NCBI RefSeq assembly: GCF_002251635.1
Contig: NZ_NMOJ01000186.1
Coordinates: forward strand, 32,315-66,434
Length of the DNA: 34,120 nucleotides
Source: Pseudomonas mandelii
GTDB lineage: Bacteria > Pseudomonadota > Gammaproteobacteria > Pseudomonadales > Pseudomonadaceae
Direction: 5' to 3'
A program made the position numbers and the translations under genes. The notes below the pieces were generated by a model, which was not told where the DNA came from, ran no database searches, and saw only the letters and a list, made by a program, of their open reading frames with translations. Shown here piece by piece: positions 5,185 through 14,307 of this stretch (position 1 is the stretch's first letter; each line of letters begins with the position of its first letter).

Positions 5185-5264
5185 TGGTGCCCCGAGGGAG
5201 ACTCGAACTCCCACTTCTTGCGAAAACGGATTTTGAATCCGCCGCGTCTACCAACACACGGGGA
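5185..5264 (-). pseudogene. tRNA-Leu(CAA), 5' part degenerate
   Basis: On the minus strand the 3' two thirds is an ordinary class II tRNA-Leu: anticodon loop TTCAAAA closed by a CGGA/TCCG stem (anticodon CAA), short variable arm with TTC-GCAA-GAA, T-arm GGGAG-TTCGAGT-CTCCC, acceptor strand TCGGGGC, A, and encoded CCA. The D-loop core GGTAGACGC is present, but the segment between acceptor and D-loop is about six bases shorter than normal. Acceptor positions 1 and 7 are mismatched (T-C and T-T), leaving 5 of 7 pairs. The total is about 80 nt instead of about 86. This fits a tRNA copy damaged in its 5' part, as at integration sites, although a working variant cannot be excluded. Confidence 0.7.
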
Positions 5265-5556: not shown

Positions 5557-5688
5557 TCGCTAGTCCTCGCTTCCGTGTGTCGGATCGGTCATGACATACG
5601 CATGTTTCAAATGCTGGCGGAATCTCGCGATCACCAGCAGGGGAGAGACTAGCTTGAGGATGGCAGAAAGCAATCAGTCGAGAATGGC

Positions 5689-5750
5689 GCCGGGGACCCT
5701 GGGACTATTCGAAGGACACGGGGTCGGAAACCCGCGGGATCTTGGTAGCG
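5689..5750 (-). repeat. 62-bp unit, copy D (inverted)
   Basis: On the minus strand it reads CGCTACCAAGATC, GCGGGTTTCCGACCCC, GTGTC, a variable part, and AGGGTCCCCGGC. It matches the two plus-strand copies in order and length. Just upstream in its own orientation lie TTTCAA words (5768-5793). Confidence 0.8.
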
Positions 5751-5767
5751 ACAGGGATTGCAGCTTA

Positions 5768-5793
5768 CTGAAATTTCAACATTGAAATTGAAA
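5768..5793 (-). repeat. TTTCAA/TTGAAA short-repeat block
   Basis: TTTCAA at 5774-5779, and TTGAAA at 5782-5787 and 5788-5793, with a related CTGAAA at 5768-5773. It occupies the same place relative to the inverted 62-bp unit as the other word blocks do relative to theirs. Confidence 0.55.
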
Positions 5794-5863
5794 GGATCCT
5801 GACGAAAAAAGGGGATCGTTACCGCAACGGTAAAGTTGAGCCACTGTGTTGTTGATAGCGAAC

Positions 5864-5915
5864 GGTTGAACCCGGTCAACCTTGGGGATGGTGTCAACCA
5901 CGTCAACCTGTCAAC
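5864..5915 (+). repeat. GTCAACC iteron-like block
   Basis: GTCAAC occurs at 5875-5880, 5893-5898, 5902-5907 and 5910-5915, with an inverted GGTTGA at 5864-5869. The copies are 8 to 18 bp apart. The block precedes the 62-bp unit at 5934-5995. Confidence 0.75.
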
Positions 5916-5933
5916 CGACGTAGAAAACTCAGT

Positions 5934-5995
5934 CGCTAACAAGATGCTGCGGGTTCTTTGCCCCGTGTCTATCTGAAATGCCCAGGGGCCCCGGC
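5934..5995 (+). repeat. 62-bp unit, copy A
   Basis: Reads CGCTAACAAGATG, GCGGGTTC, GCCCCGTGTCT, a variable part, AGGGGCCCCGGC. GGGGCCCC is itself a perfect palindrome. Confidence 0.8.
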
Positions 5996-6024
5996 GACAT
6001 CCCTAGCCATAGTGCAAATGCACT

Positions 6025-6058
6025 GGTGAACAGCAGTTCACCGGTTCACCTGTTCACT
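6025..6058 (+). repeat. GGTGAACA/GTTCACC iteron-like block
   Basis: GGTGAACA at 6025-6032 (inverted), GTTCACC at 6036-6042, GGTTCACC at 6043-6050 and TGTTCACT at 6051-6058. The word GGTGAACA is the same as my recollection of the type I iteron of the phage P4 origin, to which the P4 alpha primase-helicase binds. Confidence 0.75.
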
Positions 6059-6074
6059 AAGCTGGGCAATTTTC

Positions 6075-6135
6075 CGCTAACACGATCACGCGGGTTTCCG
6101 ACCCCTTGTCTTAAAGAAGCCTCAGGGGCCCCGGC
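6075..6135 (+). repeat. 62-bp unit, copy B
   Basis: Reads CGCTAACACGATC, GCGGGTTTCCGACCCC, TTGTCT, a variable part, AGGGGCCCCGGC. Its GGGTTTCCGACCCC core is identical to that of the inverted copy at 5689-5750, so the two form a ~22-bp inverted repeat about 390 bp apart. Confidence 0.8.
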
Positions 6136-7432: not shown

Positions 7433-10030
7433 ATGGCTGATCTAGCGAATGAAGCAATCGGGATCAACGACTTTGAAAAGTGGTTGAATGAACGGAGCGG
7501 TTGGCTTCAGGCAGCCGCCAAGCAGCTTATCGACAACAAACGTTTGCCGAATGAGGTCGAACTTGCAGAGCTGGTTCGGCTCGCCAAACTGGAGGCTGCG
7601 AAGCAGGGTGACCCTGGGTTCCTGAAGGTGGCTCCTGGTGCATTTTCGGCTGGGGCGGTTCAACGGGTGGTGCGGGTCGAAGAGTTAACCCAAGTCTTCG
7701 GGGTTAATGCGATTAAGCCTGGTGCATCTTTGCCATTCGGAACGGGTAGTTTGACTGTCATCTACGGGCAAAATGGCTCGGGGAAAAGCGGTTTTGCTCG
7801 TCTGCTCAAACAGCTTTGTGGATCTCGTTCACGGGACGAAATCCGGCCGAACGTATTCAGCGATGAAGAGCATGCTTGCAGTGCTCAATGCCGAATCACG
7901 ATTGATGGCAATTCACGAGATATCTATTGGCATCCTGGCGCCGAGCCCCATGCGATGCTCAAATACGCCCAAGTATTTGATTCGAAAACCGCAACTCAGT
8001 ACATGGGGCGCACTGAGTCAAGCTATGAGCCTAGCAGCATGCGGTTCATCTCCATGCTCATTCAGATTTCGGGCATGGTTTCTGATGAGCTGGGGCGGGA
8101 GAAGGGAAAGCTCGTTAGTGCCCTTCCACAGTTCCCAGATGATCTCTCAGATACCGCTGAGAAAGCCTGGTTCTCCTCTCTCAAAGCCTCTGCTTCTGCT
8201 GAGAAGGTCGAGGCGTATTGCCGGTATGGAAAAGACTTGGACGACGAGCGGGTCAAGGCTGAGGCTCTGCTCGCGGAAAAAGACATCGCGGGTCGCTTGG
8301 TTACGATTGGCAAGGAAAGTGTTGCCACCGAAAGCATCAAGCAGGCAATGAAACTGTTGAAAGAAGGCCTCACCGACGAGAGGGCTGATGAGCTGTCGAA
8401 GGCAAAAGTATCGGCGGTTACGGCGAGAAAGGCGGCCAACGAAGTTGCGCAGCAGGCATTCGCGAATGCTCCTCTCCAAGGCGTTGGTGAGTCGGCCTGG
8501 AAACTTATGTGGGAGCAGGCGCGCGCCTATTCCGTTGCTCATGCATACCATGGTCACGAATTTCCCGTTACTTCAGAAGGTGCGCACTGCGTGCTCTGTC
8601 AACAAGAGCTTACGGCTGAGGGCGCCGCTCGGCTCAAAAGCTTCGAGGCTTTCGTCACCGCGGGTCTCGAGACTGCGGCGAAAACTGCAGAGGCCACCAG
8701 TGCGGCACTGATCGCCAAGGTAATTCAGGTGCCTTCGATTGAAGACTGGATTGCGCGCCTAGCTCAGTTGCAGTTCGACGAATCCACGGCCCGTGCCTGG
8801 TATGAGTCGTTGAAGTCTAGGCGAGCACAGTTTATGGAATGTGCTGCCGTGGGAGATATCTCTGTGTTCGATTGGGCTCCTATCGATCAGGCACTGGAAA
8901 AACGAGCTGCCGACTTGCTTGCTGAGAAGACCAGCCTCGCCCAGCTGCAGCAGGATGGGCAGCGGCAGCAGGTCGAGAAGCGAGTGAAGCAACTCAAGGC
9001 GCTTCAGTGGCTGTCACAGAACAAGGCGGCGATTCTCGCAGAGCGTGAGCGGCTAGTAGCTGTAGATCTGCTAGATAGAGCAACAAAGTTAACGGCCACC
9101 AATTCGTTGACAACCAAGCGTACCGAGCTTGGACGCACGGAGCTTGATGCTGGATATCAGGCCCGCTTTGATGAGGAGTTGAAATCCCTTGGTGGGCGAC
9201 GTTTGCCAGTTGTGCCGCAGAGCAGGGCTCAAGGAAAAGGAGTTATCACATTTGGGCTCGCCCTTGTCGGTGCTCGGGCTGGCTTCACTCCTGATGTCGT
9301 ACTCAGTGAAGGCGAAACCCGTATTGTTGCACTGGCAGCATTCCTGGCCGACACGACCGGTTCAAACCAGCTTGCCCCTTTCATTTTTGATGACCCGATT
9401 TCGTCGTTAGATCAGGATTTCGAGGAAAGGGTTGTTACCCGGCTTGTCGAGTTGGCGAAGACTCGACAGGTCATCATCTTCACTCACCGCCTCTCCTTGA
9501 TTGCACTTGTCGAGGCTGTAATAAAAAAACACGGTGAGAATCCGGCTAACGAGAAAATCACCCACACCGTGCAGTCGCTTCGACGGCTGGATAAGGTTTC
9601 GGGAATTCTGGCGCAACACAATCTGCGGGATGCCAAGCCCGACAAGGCGCTGAATGCGATTAGAGATCACGTCATCCCCAGGCTCAAAAAGCATCAGGCC
9701 GATGCCGACGCAGACGGTTATGACCTCACCGTGAAGAGCGCCTGCAGTGATTTTCGGATCATCTTGGAACGAACAGTGGAACTCATCCTCTTGAATGACG
9801 TAGTTATTCGTTTCAGACGGGACGTAATGACTAAAGGAAAGCTAAGAGGCGTTGCTAAGGTGATGGCAGAGGACTGCGATTTTATCGACCGGTTAATGAC
9901 CAGGTATTCAGTGTACGAACACTCGCAGTCAGATGAGCTGCCTCAGGTCCCGGTCGAACTCGATGAGTTCGAGCGAGATGTCTTGGAACTCATTGCATGG
10001 ATGGATGAATTCAAAGTTCGAGCCAATTGA
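7433..10030 (+). CDS. RloC/PrrC-like AAA ATPase, putative anticodon nuclease
   Basis: The 865-aa protein has the SMC/ABC-like layout of COG4694. Walker A is GQNGSGKS at 112-119, followed by a long coiled-coil region broken by HCVLC (Cys386, Cys389), which looks like a zinc hook. The ABC signature LSEGE is at 624-628, Walker B FIFDDPISSLD at about 650-660, and a switch histidine in FTHRLS follows. The C-terminal 180 residues hold Arg775-x3-Glu779 and His830 (YEHSQ). The Arg-x3-Glu spacing is that of the anticodon-nuclease triad of PrrC/RloC, although the distance to the His is longer than in PrrC. Such enzymes cut tRNA anticodon loops in phage-infected or DNA-damaged cells. The ATG has only a weak SD. 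It appears monocistronic and stands alone, without hsd genes, as RloC does. Confidence 0.78.
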   Translation: MADLANEAIGINDFEKWLNERSGWLQAAAKQLIDNKRLPNEVELAELVRLAKLEAAKQGDPGFLKVAPGAFSAGAVQRVVRVEELTQVFGVNAIKPGASLPFGTGSLTVIYGQNGSGKSGFARLLKQLCGSRSRDEIRPNVFSDEEHACSAQCRITIDGNSRDIYWHPGAEPHAMLKYAQVFDSKTATQYMGRTESSYEPSSMRFISMLIQISGMVSDELGREKGKLVSALPQFPDDLSDTAEKAWFSSLKASASAEKVEAYCRYGKDLDDERVKAEALLAEKDIAGRLVTIGKESVATESIKQAMKLLKEGLTDERADELSKAKVSAVTARKAANEVAQQAFANAPLQGVGESAWKLMWEQARAYSVAHAYHGHEFPVTSEGAHCVLCQQELTAEGAARLKSFEAFVTAGLETAAKTAEATSAALIAKVIQVPSIEDWIARLAQLQFDESTARAWYESLKSRRAQFMECAAVGDISVFDWAPIDQALEKRAADLLAEKTSLAQLQQDGQRQQVEKRVKQLKALQWLSQNKAAILAERERLVAVDLLDRATKLTATNSLTTKRTELGRTELDAGYQARFDEELKSLGGRRLPVVPQSRAQGKGVITFGLALVGARAGFTPDVVLSEGETRIVALAAFLADTTGSNQLAPFIFDDPISSLDQDFEERVVTRLVELAKTRQVIIFTHRLSLIALVEAVIKKHGENPANEKITHTVQSLRRLDKVSGILAQHNLRDAKPDKALNAIRDHVIPRLKKHQADADADGYDLTVKSACSDFRIILERTVELILLNDVVIRFRRDVMTKGKLRGVAKVMAEDCDFIDRLMTRYSVYEHSQSDELPQVPVELDEFERDVLELIAWMDEFKVRAN

Positions 10031-10093: not shown

Positions 10094-10151
10094 TGAATCC
10101 CCCCTACTTTCGTAGAAGCCTTAGAGTGGGCGCTTTTGGCCGATTTCTGCC
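10094..10151 (+). repeat. Left ~55-bp direct repeat flanking the cassette array
   Basis: TGAATCCCCCCTACTTTCGT, AGAAGCC, then GCGCTTTTGGCCGATTTCTG CC. The copy at 14253-14307 has the same order of parts (TGAATCGCCC, TTTCGTAGA, CCGCTTCTGGCCG, CTGCC). The TGAATC..TTTCGTAGA part resembles an IS terminal repeat, but this is from memory only. Confidence 0.5.
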
Positions 10152-10188
10152 TGTCGCGAAGGGATGAAAACGGCCAAGAGCAGTCGCT
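10128..10188 (+). repeat. GGCCAGAAGC dispersed repeat, copy 2
   Basis: GGGCGCTTTTGGCCGATTTC..TGCC, then a loop region and AACGGCCAAGAGCAGTCGCT; the two arms can pair imperfectly as in the hairpin at 16078-16135. Confidence 0.6.
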
Positions 10189-10395
10189 CGACCTCAGCGG
10201 ACTTATTCCTGCCGCACGGCGCGACCCACCTGTAATAGACACGCTCCATGAGGATCGAGTAGTGTCGCAGGCGAATTTTCTCCAGCGTTGAATTCGAGCA
10301 AACGAGGCTATCCGTCCATGGTGTATAACCCGCTTATACGCTCATCGGCACGCTGAAGGCCTCAGCCTAGACACGGATAGACAAAGGAACAAGGA

Positions 10396-10482
10396 ATGCT
10401 ATACACCACGCCCGTCCAGAAAGTTATGCACCAGTTGGTGTCTATTTATAGTTCGCAGCTAAGAGAGTTTTCCACGCCATGA
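10396..10482 (+). CDS. 28-aa leader frame coupled to the HEPN cassette gene
   Basis: The frame MLYTTPVQKVMHQLVSIYSS.. has AAGGA seven bases before its ATG and ends with TGA at 10480-10482, overlapping the next ATG (10479) as ATGA. The downstream gene has no SD of its own, so ribosomes probably reach it from this frame. The frame crosses a possible attI/cassette junction (AAAG|TTATGC, cut after 10423). This parallels the small frames in attI1 that raise translation of SD-less first cassettes. It probably acts as a translational leader rather than as a functional peptide. Confidence 0.5.
   Translation: MLYTTPVQKVMHQLVSIYSSQLREFSTP
10423..10429 (+). other. Possible attI-like recombination point
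   Basis: GTTATGC preceded by AAA gives AAAG|TTATGC, like the attI crossover (AAAG|TTRRRY). The heptamer is identical to the R' box of the first attC site at 11274-11280. This is consistent with the HEPN gene being the first cassette, but a 7-base match is weak evidence. Confidence 0.35.
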
Positions 10483-11219
10483 AAACAAAGTCATATATAA
10501 GATTTTCTAGTCGCGCAGCTCATCTTGATGTCGACATTGAGTTGGCCGATGTGCTGAAAATCTCAATCCAAGCAGGCATGCTAAGCGCAGCAGGCACTCA
10601 ACGTATATTCGACAAAGTAAATCCTCAACAGCATCCAAGACTTGCCGCAAGGGCCAATACTTCAGAAAGCAGAAAACTCGCTGCCAATCACCTAAAAGCG
10701 ACTCTGTGCGAAGCATTCATCAAGAACATTTACGAGGATGCAACACAATATATTCTCGAAATTTTAACCGCAGCAGCCAAGAAGGGGTTAGATCCAAATC
10801 GTTTAATTGGCGAACACAAAGTTTCCTTTGAAGCCAATGACGTCCTAAAAGCTGGAAGCTGGGATAAAGTAGTCTCAATGGTTGCACAATCCGTTTTCAG
10901 AAAACTAGAAAACGAAAAAAGCACAAAGAATCTTTTGGAGAAAATAAACTCCAAATTAAATCTTGGCGTTTCTCAAGCAAAAATTGATGCTGCACTACCC
11001 TATTTAGAAATACGGCATTTACTTGTACATGCCGATGGAAAGGCAGATCAAAAATTTTGTGAGTCGTTTCCTACTATAGGGGCAACTGCGGGGCAAAAAT
11101 TAAAACTTGATTACGCACTGCTCCAGCAGGCAAGAATTTCAATATGCGAGCTAGTTAATGAATACGATCAAAAAATTGTCGCAGGCAATGTTGTTCTGCC
11201 ACATGAGCTTCAGCGGTAA
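10479..11219 (+). CDS. HEPN-domain protein, integron cassette gene
   Basis: The 246-aa, largely helical protein has EIRHLLVHADG near its end, where Arg179-x4-His184 is the catalytic motif of HEPN ribonucleases. HEPN proteins act as toxins or abortive-infection effectors; the region after the motif (about 60 residues) resembles RiboL-PSP-type HEPN proteins. The gene is AT-rich compared with its surroundings and is followed after 3 bases by an attC site, so it fits an integron cassette. It lacks an SD and is probably translated by coupling to the 28-aa frame. No antitoxin partner is obvious next to it. Confidence 0.6.
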   Translation: MKTKSYIRFSSRAAHLDVDIELADVLKISIQAGMLSAAGTQRIFDKVNPQQHPRLAARANTSESRKLAANHLKATLCEAFIKNIYEDATQYILEILTAAAKKGLDPNRLIGEHKVSFEANDVLKAGSWDKVVSMVAQSVFRKLENEKSTKNLLEKINSKLNLGVSQAKIDAALPYLEIRHLLVHADGKADQKFCESFPTIGATAGQKLKLDYALLQQARISICELVNEYDQKIVAGNVVLPHELQR

Positions 11220-11222
11220 CGC

Positions 11223-11280
11223 TGCTAACAATGCGCTCACTGGTACGGGCTAAAGCCCGCCCCTTAACCAAACGTTATGC
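11223..11280 (+). other. attC site A
   Basis: R''-like TGCTAAC at 11223-11229 and R' GTTATGC at 11274-11280 enclose a 58-bp site with an inner hairpin CGGGCT-AA-AGCCCG and the CCCCTTA element before R'. It shares TAACAATGCGCT and CCCCTTA with site B. Cassette cutting would fall between 11274 and 11275. Confidence 0.75.
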
Positions 11281-11314
11281 CCCAATTTAAAATTTTGTAG
11301 AGCCAGGAGAAGAA

Positions 11315-11575
11315 ATGTCCTTTTACATGATTACCTACGGGCACACACAGATTGAAGAACTCTATATTGGTGAAACCGAAGATGCTGCAGTATCAAATGC
11401 CAGAGGCTTAATCGATCAATGGCCAGAATATGCAGCACTAACAGATAAAGAGATTATAGAACTCGCCAAAAACGGCGATGCCGAATTTGATTTAGTTGAG
11501 ATACATGCAGCCTGGCCTGGCACCAATCACAGCCAAGAGCAGTTAATTGCCATATATGAGCAACAGCAAAGCTAG
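11315..11575 (+). CDS. 86-aa hypothetical cassette protein
   Basis: The acidic protein (MSFYMITYGHTQIEELYIGE..) has a good SD (AGGAG, six bases before the ATG). It fills cassette 11275-11656, which has almost no other sequence, as is usual for integron cassettes. It has an alpha/beta pattern, many Glu/Asp residues, and no signal peptide. No domain is recognised. The first residues resemble small acidic phage-type proteins, but this is not evidence of function. Confidence 0.65.
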   Translation: MSFYMITYGHTQIEELYIGETEDAAVSNARGLIDQWPEYAALTDKEIIELAKNGDAEFDLVEIHAAWPGTNHSQEQLIAIYEQQQS

Positions 11576-11585
11576 GCGTATTGTT

Positions 11586-11662
11586 AAATAACAATGCGCT
11601 AAAATCGTTCGCTTCGCTCACTGAGACGGGCTTTAGTCCACCCCTTAGCTTAACCGTTAGGT
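11586..11662 (+). other. attC site B
   Basis: R'' box AAATAAC at 11586-11592 and a consensus R' box GTTAGGT at 11656-11662. The interior has TAACAATGCGCT, an ACGGGCTTTAGTCC hairpin region and CCCCTTAG near R'. Length is 77 bp. The cassette boundary is between 11656 and 11657. Confidence 0.8.
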
Positions 11663-11674
11663 GTTTTTTGAAAT

Positions 11675-12469
11675 ATGAGTGGATTTCAAGAGCTAATAGA
11701 AAAATTTGATTTTATAACTGAGATTGCATATGACTTATCTCAGCAGTTTGACGGCGTTCAAACAGAAGATAGAAAACGAAAAATATCGACTTACTACTTG
11801 GCAAAAGTTGTACCAGAATGCATGTCATTATTGAGAGTAATGCCCGGCTCAAGGTACACCAGCGCAGGGGAGATATTTGATTTTTCGTCGTTCTGCTCAA
11901 TTTCTAGGAGCTTGATTGAAGCGGCCAACCTGCATTGGTATTACTGCATAGAGAACACGGACACGGAAAAGTCTGAGTTCCGTTTTTATCTGTATGATTT
12001 TCACGATCTAAAATCGACAATTCAACTCTGTAGTTTTTTTGGCGGCGAAGACAAAGAACAATATCCTCTTCAAGAAAAATACAACAAGCTAAAGACTGTA
12101 ATTAAAGACAACCAAATATTTAAAAGTCTACTGCCTGAAGTTCAGAGGCAAATTCTAAAAGGGCGTAAATGCTCGGACATTAACCAAACTGAAATCTCCG
12201 AGAGCCGATGTCTCAATGTGAGCATGTTTAACTCTATCTATAAGATACTATCTACAAACGCTCACTCGACCCCTTCGGCAATAAATGCACTCGTCTATTC
12301 TAGAGTCCACAGCAAAGAACTTCATGAAAAGCTTGCGGCATTAGTGCTTTCATATGTAGCATCATTTATTGCGGACATGGTGAGGACAATTGGCGAAATA
12401 TGGTCTTTAGAGTTCGCCAAACATGAATCAGCAGAAATAATTAGATTCTATTCAGAAGACTTGAGTTAA
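11675..12469 (+). CDS. 264-aa helical cassette protein, possibly DUF5677-like
   Basis: The protein begins MSGFQELIEKFDFITEIAYD and is helical throughout. Parts such as SSFCSISRSLIEAANLHWYY and YKILSTNAHSTPSA recall DUF5677-type proteins, which have a similar SR..E and S..H layout, but I am not sure of this. The gene starts 19 bases after the crossover of attC site B and has no clear SD. It is AT-rich. Its own attC has been almost completely lost: only about 15 bases separate its stop from the next cassette's TTAGAA start. Confidence 0.55.
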   Translation: MSGFQELIEKFDFITEIAYDLSQQFDGVQTEDRKRKISTYYLAKVVPECMSLLRVMPGSRYTSAGEIFDFSSFCSISRSLIEAANLHWYYCIENTDTEKSEFRFYLYDFHDLKSTIQLCSFFGGEDKEQYPLQEKYNKLKTVIKDNQIFKSLLPEVQRQILKGRKCSDINQTEISESRCLNVSMFNSIYKILSTNAHSTPSAINALVYSRVHSKELHEKLAALVLSYVASFIADMVRTIGEIWSLEFAKHESAEIIRFYSEDLS

Positions 12470-12472
12470 AAC

Positions 12473-12490
12473 ACCTGCAAACATTAGAAC
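12473..12490 (+). other. Eroded cassette junction
   Basis: ACCTGCAAACA (12473-12483) is followed by TTAGAAC (12484-12490). TTAGAA is the exact mirror of the R'' box TTCTAAC at 12822-12828, as expected for the two ends of one cassette. ACCT mirrors the TTAGGT start of the preceding cassette (11657). The attC between them is thus reduced to a few bases. Confidence 0.5.
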
Positions 12491-12503
12491 TCAGGGGGAA
12501 AAT

Positions 12504-12827
12504 TTGCGCTACGGAATCATCGAACTTACCCAGGGCAACCTCAACAACGATCATCTGTACCTGACAAGCATAATGGAGCTGTTTCCCGCCGCTTCTGTGG
12601 GTGGCAGCTCGGAAGCGGATCGCGCCTCGCAACTGCTTGAGGTTCACTCAGGCATCGGCGCCCCCGTAATGACTGACATCGCAGGTGACAAGAAGATCTT
12701 TCGTAAACGAGCGTGGGTTGGGGAGTTCTTCGCTACGCATCAACTCAAAGCGGGCGACTCAGTAGTAGTGGAGCGCACAGGGACTCTTCGCTATCACGTG
12801 TACCCCAAACGTGCAGCTGAGTTCTAA
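12504..12827 (+). CDS. 107-aa hypothetical cassette protein
   Basis: The frame begins with TTG, preceded by AGGGGG at good spacing. The protein starts (M)RYGIIELTQGNLNNDHLYLT. Its C-terminal half, FFATHQLKAGDSVVVERTGT followed by LRYHVYP, has the L-x-x-GD-x-V-x-V pattern of small beta-barrels such as B3/EcoRII-type DNA-binding domains; this is only a resemblance. It occupies cassette 12484-12875, with the stop inside the R'' box of the classical attC site C. GC content is higher than in the preceding cassette, so the two probably have different origins. Confidence 0.6.
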   Translation: MRYGIIELTQGNLNNDHLYLTSIMELFPAASVGGSSEADRASQLLEVHSGIGAPVMTDIAGDKKIFRKRAWVGEFFATHQLKAGDSVVVERTGTLRYHVYPKRAAEF

Positions 12828-12881
12828 CAATTCATTCAAGCCGACACCGCTTCGCGGCGTGACTTAATTCGGGCGTTAGCC
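12822..12881 (+). other. attC site C (classical 60-bp form)
   Basis: R'' TTCTAAC (12822-12828) and R' GTTAGCC (12875-12881) enclose a textbook 59-base-element type site: AATTCATTCAAGCCGACACC, the loop GCTTCGCGG, then CGTGACTTAATTCGGGC. It closely resembles attC sites of the aadA type found in mobile class 1 integron cassettes. Confidence 0.92.
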
Positions 12882-12891
12882 AGGGAATAGT

Positions 12892-13533
12892 ATGAGTGCA
12901 GGTTTTGTTTATGTAATGATTAACCCTGCAATGCAGGGGCTAGTAAAAATTGGATTAACCAAGAAATCATGTAATGAACGTACAAAGGGGTTGAGAGGCA
13001 CAGGAGTTCCAGACGATTTTATAGTTGTTTATGATGAGTTTCTTATTGATTGTGAGTTAATTGAAAAACGACTTCACAAAAGATTCGATGAATATCGTTA
13101 TAAGCCAAACAGAGAGTTTTTTCAGATTCCCATTAGAGAAGCGATTCGGGGCGTAGTGGAAGAGTCTGTTGGGTTTATTGTGCCTCGTGTCGGAGCGGAT
13201 GGAGGTGTGGAAATTCTTCCTGATCTGAAGAAAAAATACCCAAGCTATCTAAAACCTGACTTTCACTCGATCAAAATTACGCATAGTGGTGGAGTGGTGT
13301 ATCTTGAGTCTGTTCGTTATCGACACGCGGGTGTTAAAGACGAAGTTGTTGAGCGAACCGATCTAAGCTTCATCGCTGAGGATCACGGCGATATGTTTCA
13401 AATTTCTAGAGATCCAACAGAAAATGCGAGATTATTTGTTCATCAACTAGATGAATACTCAATGATTCAGTGTACAGACTTGTTCACACATGATGCGTGC
13501 GTTGATATAGCACAAAGGCACGAGCATGGCTAA
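12892..13533 (+). CDS. T5orf172 / GIY-YIG-like cassette protein
   Basis: The 213-aa protein begins with GFVYVMINPAMQGLVKIGLT, followed by CNERTKGL, then CELIEKRLHKRFDEY and NREFFQIP. This is the order of T5orf172 domains of the GIY-YIG superfamily (two strands, Arg, Glu, EFF), covering residues 4-90. The C-terminal part (about 95-213) is unrecognised. Related proteins occur in phages and may bind or cut DNA. AGGGA lies before the ATG, 11 bases past attC site C. It is the last gene of the cassette array. Confidence 0.7.
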   Translation: MSAGFVYVMINPAMQGLVKIGLTKKSCNERTKGLRGTGVPDDFIVVYDEFLIDCELIEKRLHKRFDEYRYKPNREFFQIPIREAIRGVVEESVGFIVPRVGADGGVEILPDLKKKYPSYLKPDFHSIKITHSGGVVYLESVRYRHAGVKDEVVERTDLSFIAEDHGDMFQISRDPTENARLFVHQLDEYSMIQCTDLFTHDACVDIAQRHEHG

Positions 13534-13550
13534 CAAAGTGCTGCTGCCGG
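13528..13550 (+). other. Truncated attC site D
   Basis: GGCTAAC (13528-13534), the exact mirror of the R' box GTTAGCC at the start of this cassette, is followed by AAAGTGCTGCTGCCGG. No R' box follows before unrelated repeat sequence from about 13560. The array was evidently cut here. Confidence 0.65.
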
Positions 13551-13594
13551 AAAAGTTTACCGCCGCGCTCCAAATTTATGGAAAAGGGGACTGG

Positions 13595-13625: not shown

Positions 13626-13686
13626 GTCCGCTCCTGGCCGCTCTCTGCCTGTCACTATGGTCGGGAGTCGGCCAGAAGCGGTCACT
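13626..13686 (+). repeat. GGCCAGAAGC dispersed repeat, copy 3
   Basis: GTCCGCTCCTGGCCGCTCTC TGCC on one arm and GTCGGCCAGAAGCGGTCAC on the other. The arms pair over most of their length, forming a hairpin like that at 16078-16135. Confidence 0.65.
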
Positions 13687-13732
13687 AATGAGCGTCCCCT
13701 TTTAGCTTTTCAACCATGAGATACAAGTACTA

Positions 13733-14239
13733 ATGAAAACCATATTTGAAGACATCATCACGCGCTATGGCACAAAGCGCGCAGAGTTTATCGCAGAGAC
13801 CTGGCCGAAAAACCCAAAATGGCTTGATTTCATCAAGGTGTCGGACTCCCCAAGAGCGGAGGAGTACTTTGATGAGGAGATGGAGTTTTACAGGGCATTC
13901 GAGCTGGAACTTGATGCTATTCCGAAATTGAGAAATAAAGAAATCAGCTCACCTCAATGGGAGGAGGTTGTTCATTTTTTAAAAATCCACAACGAGAGAC
14001 TATCATCTCAGATTGATAACTCGACGACGCTCACCGCCACCTTCGTTTTTGTGGGGTCTCTCTTTATTCTGCTTGCAAACTACATCACCAATATATTCTA
14101 CGTTCCGTTTGCATTCCTGGCTGTGTTCGCCATACAAATTTTTTTACAGCGGATGGGGCGTCGGCATGAGCTGGCTAGAAATAAAGAGCTTGTGATCATT
14201 ATCGAAAATTACATCAAAAAGTGTCGCACATCTTCTTAA
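13733..14239 (+). CDS. 168-aa hypothetical protein with two membrane segments
   Basis: The N-terminal 95 residues are soluble and charged. They are followed by two hydrophobic stretches, TATFVFVGSLFILLANYI and FYVPFAFLAVFAIQIFL, and a basic C-terminal tail (RMGRRHELARNK..). This hairpin-like topology with a cytoplasmic N-terminal domain occurs in many small accessory membrane proteins, including some effectors. No family is recognised. The ATG overlaps the stop of a six-codon frame (TAATG), and no good SD is present. It lies outside the cassette array, between two dispersed repeats. Confidence 0.6.
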   Translation: MKTIFEDIITRYGTKRAEFIAETWPKNPKWLDFIKVSDSPRAEEYFDEEMEFYRAFELELDAIPKLRNKEISSPQWEEVVHFLKIHNERLSSQIDNSTTLTATFVFVGSLFILLANYITNIFYVPFAFLAVFAIQIFLQRMGRRHELARNKELVIIIENYIKKCRTSS

Positions 14240-14252
14240 GTTTCATCTGTAG

Positions 14253-14307
14253 TGAATCGCCCTGGATTTCGTAGATGGCGACTGTCCGCTTCTGGCCGAA
14301 AGCTGCC
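14253..14307 (+). repeat. Right ~55-bp direct repeat flanking the cassette array
   Basis: TGAATCGCCCTGGATTTCGT, AGATGGC, then GTCCGCTTCTGGCCG and CTGCC. Same order of parts and orientation as 10094-10151. The GTCCGCTTCTGGCC part (14284-14307) is also a copy of the dispersed repeat. Confidence 0.5.

Follow-up and report, generated by a model that had tools for sequence, protein, structure and literature searches.

How a bacterial chromosome comes to carry a row of integron gene cassettes with no integrase to insert them is the question raised by a stretch of Pseudomonas mandelii DNA of 34,120 nt (assembly GCF_002251635.1, contig NZ_NMOJ01000186.1, positions 32,315 to 66,434), the whole of which is referred to here as the window. 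From position 10452 to about 13577 it holds five single-gene cassettes, all on the plus strand, as read from the sequence and its list of open reading frames (ORFs). A preliminary description of this DNA had counted at least four cassettes, each with one co-directional gene, which agrees with the five now delimited, and had classed the array as a cluster of attC sites lacking an integrase (CALIN). CALINs are usually seen as degraded integrons. The array is very probably a decayed chromosomal integron that has kept its attachment site, attI, and lost its integrase gene, intI, and comparison with other genomes suggests that dead integron heads of this kind may move between species and be refilled by integrases acting in trans.

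An attI site and an integrase remnant at the head of the array

The first cassette is preceded by an attI module (10320 to 10451, plus strand; GGTGTATAAC ... GTTATGCACCAGTTGGTGTCTATTTATAG), with the crossover after G10451, and by a 5' stub of intI (10188 to 10319, minus strand) whose start codon is the complement of 10317-10319. Positions 10188-10453 align with 17 loci of other Pseudomonas genomes, and a second alignment was made of the stub. Where the integrase is intact, the same stretch consists of the start of intI on the minus strand and attI, ending at the crossover G|TT, past which most of the aligned loci diverge, each into a first cassette of its own. Judged from this alignment, the head of the array is a retained attI. 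The stub itself is broken by an in-frame stop at codon 4, by a shift of one base and by a deletion of 26+1 nt, and the remainder of the gene is gone. A scan of attI for a Pc-type promoter found no sigma-70-like site.

The genome-wide intI search proposed in the preliminary description returned no integrase over the cut-off in the 6.67-Mb genome (best match 84 bits against a cut-off of 265; none at E<=1e-40). The statement that the window has no intI is correct for the gene but passes over the 5' stub. The array start had been placed at 10423, a position inside attI (where it reads as GTTATGC, 10424); because attI and the stub occupy 10188-10451, the first cassette begins at 10452. The end had been placed at 13550, and the last attC remnant reaches about 13577.

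In the available account of the IntegronFinder class, a CALIN has at least two attC sites and no integrase. The array is alike in this, but differs in that attI and an integrase stub are still present at its head, and it is therefore a decayed integron at its own attI rather than a free-floating attC cluster. Compared with a functional integron, it lacks an intact intI and has, by alignment, attI at its head. An ordinary CALIN formed by cassette insertion at a secondary (attG) site would share the formal definition and the lack of intI; it is contradicted by the conserved attI and stub and is very improbable. The attI sites outside class 1 are, in the available text on the program, poorly described and not detected by IntegronFinder. 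The Pseudomonas attI motif used here makes attI-headed arrays without an integrase searchable.

Cassettes and attC sites

Cassette 1 (10452 to 11274; ORF 10479-11219, 246 aa) ends in attC1 (11223 to 11280), a site of 58 nt from which about 18 nt are missing, including the L'' box that most relatives have, and cassette 2 (11275 to 11656; ORF 11315-11575, 86 aa) in attC2 (11586 to 11662), a complete 77-nt site of the Pseudomonas type. Cassette 3 (11657 to 12483; ORF 11675-12469, 264 aa) and cassette 4 (12484 to 12875; ORF 12504-12827, 107 aa) meet at a remnant of attC3 (12472 to 12489, CACCT..AAACATTAGAA, a reading by eye with no strand assigned). Cassette 4 ends in attC4 (12822 to 12881), of a 60-nt type, and cassette 5 (12876 to 13534; ORF 12892-13533, 213 aa) in the remnant of a shortened attC5 (13528 to 13577). 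The attC sites other than attC3 lie on the minus (bottom) strand.

Three of the five junctions are damaged. The eroded attC3 and the truncated attC5 had been recognised in the preliminary description, but attC1, called clear there, is internally deleted. Its relatives mostly measure 75-79 nt, with some of 60, 70 or 88-89 nt, and because its L'' half is absent attC1 is probably a poor recombination substrate. Only a few bases are left of attC3, so that cassettes 3 and 4 are fused. Another genome, G295, has attC5 shortened near the same point, and a fuller form of about 70 nt exists in locus L060. The mirrored end boxes described earlier, GTTAGCC (12875) with GGCTAAC (13528) and TTAGAA (12484) with TTCTAAC (12822), are present; by eye, the left end of cassette 1, GTTCGCAGC, also mirrors GCTGCTAAC before attC1 at 8 of 9 positions.

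The sites were assessed with a covariance model, R1, built from 30 bottom-strand sites of relatives with the window's own sites excluded; the training sites were picked by similarity to the window's attC sites, and as a test of those sites R1 is therefore not blind. From 45 picked sites, 43 were placed in alignment A1 (without L083:9981 and L073:8442) and 30 in alignment A2; the 13 rows left out of A2 comprised five of 79-89 nt, two of 60 nt and six of 76 nt, the last being gapped or out of register in the stems or loop. RNAalifold gave only 4 pairs when run on the first alignment, and the structure was therefore written by hand for the smaller set. In R1, 36 cells were changed on both sides; shuffled alignments averaged 13.3, and none of 500 came as high. 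The number of pairs with double-sided changes (4) was not above shuffles. Pairing was destroyed when partner columns were slid.

Searched against both strands of the window with filters off, R1 gave 10 matches in 34 kb, the top three of which are exactly the three sites named in the preliminary description (the fourth scored 9.5 bits): attC2 (11586-11662, 70.1 bits, E 2.8e-20), attC1 (11196-11280, 37.5 bits, E 1.6e-9) and attC4 (12822-12881, 16.1 bits, E 0.019). The covariance-model check put forward there thus came out well for all three positions, but attC1 aligns properly only in its 3' half, and the accompanying proposal to fold the bottom strands yielded no unusual stability by plain folding (z -1.12 to 0.25). 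The attC fold represented by the model, a bottom strand with R and L boxes and an extrahelical base, is matched in full by attC2, in part by attC4 and not by attC1. Additionally, attC regions of plasmid cassettes, blaIMP and fosE among them, match attC4 with 84-88% identity over 70-82 bp. Rfam at gathering scores had no match anywhere in the window.

Across the whole genome (150 of 2261 candidates scored), R1 had four matches at E<=10, namely the three window sites and one on contig C198. This last (G000:C198:146877-146952, locus L089; G000 being the genome of the window) is a lone attC of 58 bits with no other attC match nearby, and adjoins one copy of an intergenic repeat of Pseudomonas (gaccgcttttggccgatt...).

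Two observations weigh against reading the locus as a decayed integron. The assembly is in 251 contigs, and an integrase could therefore be missed. In a blind 12-mer scan the cassette-1 mirror reached 8/12, no better than a chance site at +352, so that attC1 itself is the better evidence for cassette 1. In the case of attC4, the genome-wide E of 3.7 is the weakest of the four R1 matches, and its support therefore consists of the mirrored ends and the identity to plasmid attC regions.

On the reading as a decayed integron, an integron integrase would once have placed circular cassettes into attI at its crossover, after G10451. Truncation of intI to its 5' stub would have followed, and the array would since have been static and eroding, with attC1 and attC5 damaged and attC3 nearly gone.

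Recurrence of the cassettes in other genomes

A genus search with the array region covered 298 genomes, with two candidates scored per genome, and the results hold among the matches listed. Cassette 2 was found in G254 at 92%, without the window's other cassettes, and cassettes 4 and 5 were found together with the truncated attC5 in G295 (probably P. viridiflava ICMP 19473) at 95%. The preliminary description had allowed that a gene order conserved as a normal operon would speak against cassettes; the five-gene order occurred in none of the matches listed. No closer copy of the array was present in 115 genomes drawn as relatives. Co-directional genes would also suit a normal defence operon with chance repeats, but this is contradicted by the attC model scores and by the recurrence of the cassettes singly or as a pair in other genomes, and it hardly deserves credence.

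At fourfold sites, identity between G000 and G295 is 0.91 for cassette 5 and 0.93 for cassette 4, against 0.60 for gyrB, and between G000 and G254 it is 0.89 for cassette 2 (27 sites only), against 0.65 for gyrB. The cassettes have probably moved horizontally. Few changes enter the ratios of nonsynonymous to synonymous change (dN/dS), which are about 0.10 in cassette 2, 0.40 in cassette 4 and 0.19 in cassette 5. The genes were probably retained at least until recently, and since dN/dS is low they may still be used.

In G295, the sequence ahead of cassette 4 corresponds to the intI stub as far as the deletion junction, with 91% identity over 33 nt, and this piece joins what appears by eye to be the 3' end of an attC, at the attC3 position. 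The same locus (L083) has a second attI core at about 10800 in array orientation, inverted, downstream and facing the end of the array of cassettes 4 and 5. Just upstream of the G295 array is a 206-aa ORF with weak tyrosine recombinase similarity, 86% identical to an ORF near the attI of G088.

A truncated intI allele shared between species

The 26+1 nt deletion junction is common to the window, G035, G281, G029, G045, G104 and P. entomophila WZ006 (locus L180); the carriers presumably belong to several species groups. None of the six surveyed carriers (G000, G035, G281, G029, G045 and G104) has intI at E<=1e-40. A reading of the shared deletion as frameshifting was discarded by count, 26+1 nt being in frame.

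On a gyrB tree (G222 not included), the six carriers do not form one clade and need at least four changes. Stub identity is 0.75-0.98 against 0.56-0.78 for gyrB at fourfold sites and is the higher in 15 of 15 pairs, which are not independent. Except for the head region that G035 and G281 have in common, and a gene of G281 and G045 that lies 8-9 kb downstream and on opposite strands, no flanking genes are common to the 20-kb loci of the carriers at E<=1e-20. The first cassettes behind the allele differ, except in G035/G281; their ends are mirrored at 12/12 positions in G029 and over seven contiguous bases in G035/G281. From these comparisons the array would have travelled between species.

A frozen vertical relic, with a single death of intI in a common ancestor, no movement since and array differences due to losses, would explain why the carriers have the deletion in common, and it agrees with their position inside one larger gyrB clade. 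It also agrees with the upstream similarity among the relatives G035, G281, G029, G045 and G104: in 8 of their 10 pairwise comparisons this stops near -320, and it reaches about -448 in G035/G281 and about -510 in G045/G104. However, the changes needed on the gyrB tree, the excess of stub over gyrB identity, the differing first cassettes and the largely unshared flanking genes all count against it, and it appears rather improbable.

One dead allele heads different first cassettes, and for this reason the last cassette exchange would have been made by an integrase in trans. Had intI already been inactive in the common source, later exchange next to attI would need either a trans integrase or recombination across attI. 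Replacement of the cassettes behind the stub by homologous recombination across attI and attC, with no trans integrase, would find its substrate in attI copies of 73-96% identity (12 measured pairs) and in attC sites, which are similar repeats. However, identity does not exceed 89% in 11 of these 12 attI pairs, a level that disfavours homologous recombination, and site-specific recombination would account for the exact joints without further assumptions. Recombination of this kind is possible though somewhat doubtful, and a trans integrase is modestly favoured over it.

Movement and refilling of the dead heads have their own difficulties. Since the six carriers lie within one larger gyrB clade, they may go back to a single old origin followed by losses. 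The cassettes may also have come to differ first, the deletion being taken up afterwards through homologous recombination across attI. It keeps the frame, and the truncated frame is open in G035 and G281, so some constraint on the stub is conceivable. A blind scan found no clear mirrored first-cassette end in G045 or G104.

Frequency of attI heads without an integrase

In the 298 genus genomes, intI at E<=1e-40 occurs in 36 and a match to the attI head in 42, some of them partial (intI part of 54 bases in G050, G279 and G290, 51 in G208 and about 30 in G113 and G028), while attC, under stricter filters, occurs in 94. Without intI there are 24 head-bearing genomes and 61 attC-bearing genomes, 15 having both. 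An exact scan of named genomes located the attI core at 48 loci (44 in Pseudomonas and two each in Stutzerimonas and a gammaproteobacterial metagenome-assembled genome), a few of them covered by fewer than 500 upstream bases. Similarity to intI upstream of the core extends over at least 250 aa at 12 loci, 60-249 aa at seven and less than 60 aa at 29. Of these 29, 27 have no integrase similarity beyond about 145 bases from the crossover, that is, attI plus the first codons, and 21 of these 27 orphan sites have an attC match in the available stretch, its orientation not individually checked. Some genomes, such as P. taeanensis MS-3, have intI-linked and orphan attI sites together.

It is tentatively proposed, with rather low probability, that attI heads without an integrase in Pseudomonas, the truncated intI allele among them, would be self-standing mobile docking platforms that pass from species to species and are repeatedly loaded in trans; many attI-headed arrays of the genus would then be satellites to integrons located elsewhere. 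Should attI be retained and the dead head spread and be refilled in trans, integrase-less arrays would belong to a shared cassette economy that the standard program overlooks, since attI sites outside class 1 escape it. The observations hint that dead gene-collecting devices may still spread and be refilled by outside enzymes.

The attI modules without intI at L146, L154, L155, L158, L176, L185, L187 and L190 form a family with a distinct common left flank (GCCAGYRGTTATCSGACATGGTGTATAA...). Its members come from P. chengduensis, P. alcaliphila, P. toyotomiensis, P. indoloxydans and two Pseudomonas that lack a species name.

Relation to known integrons

The element is of a known kind and an informative variant of it, and what deserves testing is the possible spread and refilling of dead attI heads. 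The chromosomal integrons of Pseudomonas stutzeri, presumably those named InPstQ, reportedly capture and express cassettes, going by titles of papers cited in PMC2426708; we take them to have Pseudomonas-type attC sites and an attI like those here. No description of attI-headed arrays without an integrase in Pseudomonas was found in titles and the beginnings of abstracts among the papers listed, in a search mostly outside subscription journals.

The available text of a study of Xanthomonas integrons describes groups of strains with common intI deletions or stops in which the arrays persist, and 1.8% of cassette orthologues called defence genes; CALINs, it states, can be mobilised in trans (PMC12444791). 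As far as that text goes, inactivation common to groups and retention of the arrays are alike in both genera, but intI lies downstream of ilvD in Xanthomonas and is mostly vertical, whereas the dead head here occurs in different contexts and looks horizontally spread. Integron-like elements of the P. fluorescens group are, in the available part of their description, based on XerD-like recombinases, and their authors found no attI (PMC4542609). On that description they are mobile, belong to the same bacterial group and bear the name integron-like, and they differ from the array in the recombinase and the lack of attI.

Cassette genes and their possible defence setting

The cassette 5 protein matches T5orf172 (GIY-YIG) in Pfam with 52.7 bits against a cut-off of 20, and its residues 2-85 match the PADLOC candidate defence family PDC-S57; full-length plasmid relatives are 32-34% identical. 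For cassette 3 there is a sub-threshold match to DUF5677 (22.3 bits against 27.1) and a weak PADLOC match to PDC-M22A, with one distant genus match in 248 genomes and two distant plasmid matches. Cassettes 1, 2 and 4 have no significant family match. The labels given in the preliminary description therefore divide: T5orf172 is confirmed by Pfam, but HEPN, proposed for cassette 1, has no significant match in Pfam, PADLOC, NCBIfam or PHROGs. AlphaFold models made without alignments have predicted local distance difference test (pLDDT) values of 44 for cassette 1, which is all-helical, and 39 for cassette 3. Among 248 family genomes cassette 1 matches only itself, and it has no relatives in plasmids or viral contigs.

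The defence-region setting suggested earlier agrees with neighbouring genes (PDC-S06, Schlafen AlbA_2 and an IrrE-like peptidase), which fit a defence-rich variable region, and an anti-phage role of the cassette genes is plausible from such matches. On a Vibrio tubiashii plasmid, a T5orf172 relative (32% identity) lies in an array of six repeats that stand between genes and look attC-like by eye; five of the repeats are 63-84% identical to the copy taken as reference, and an AbiH gene follows with two genes between. The likeness to integron-borne anti-phage cassettes is with this Vibrio relative; for the window's array a defence role is suggested by the family matches to PDC-S57 and, weakly, PDC-M22A. 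Just upstream of the dead integron, an 865-aa AAA protein (7433-10030) matches the candidate defence family PDC-S06 nearly end to end, with 1124 bits.

Flanking repeats and neighbouring elements

A 58-nt direct repeat (71%) stands on either side of the whole decayed integron, at 10131-10188 and 13629-13686, and G281 has a similar stretch upstream of its intI stub. At 13668-14299, a unit with a 168-aa ORF is bounded by a 17-nt inverted repeat (94%); positions 13673-14299 recur in G044 (L019) at 92%, and the unit may be a small mobile element abutting the array. Farther upstream, a predicted tRNA-Leu(CAA) at 5185-5264, with no Rfam match at gathering score, measures 80 nt against 85 nt for the copy in G272, to which it is identical over 70 nt, and may be damaged. 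G272 also has an attI array close to its tRNA-Leu gene and to a homologue (83%) of window 5686-6105.

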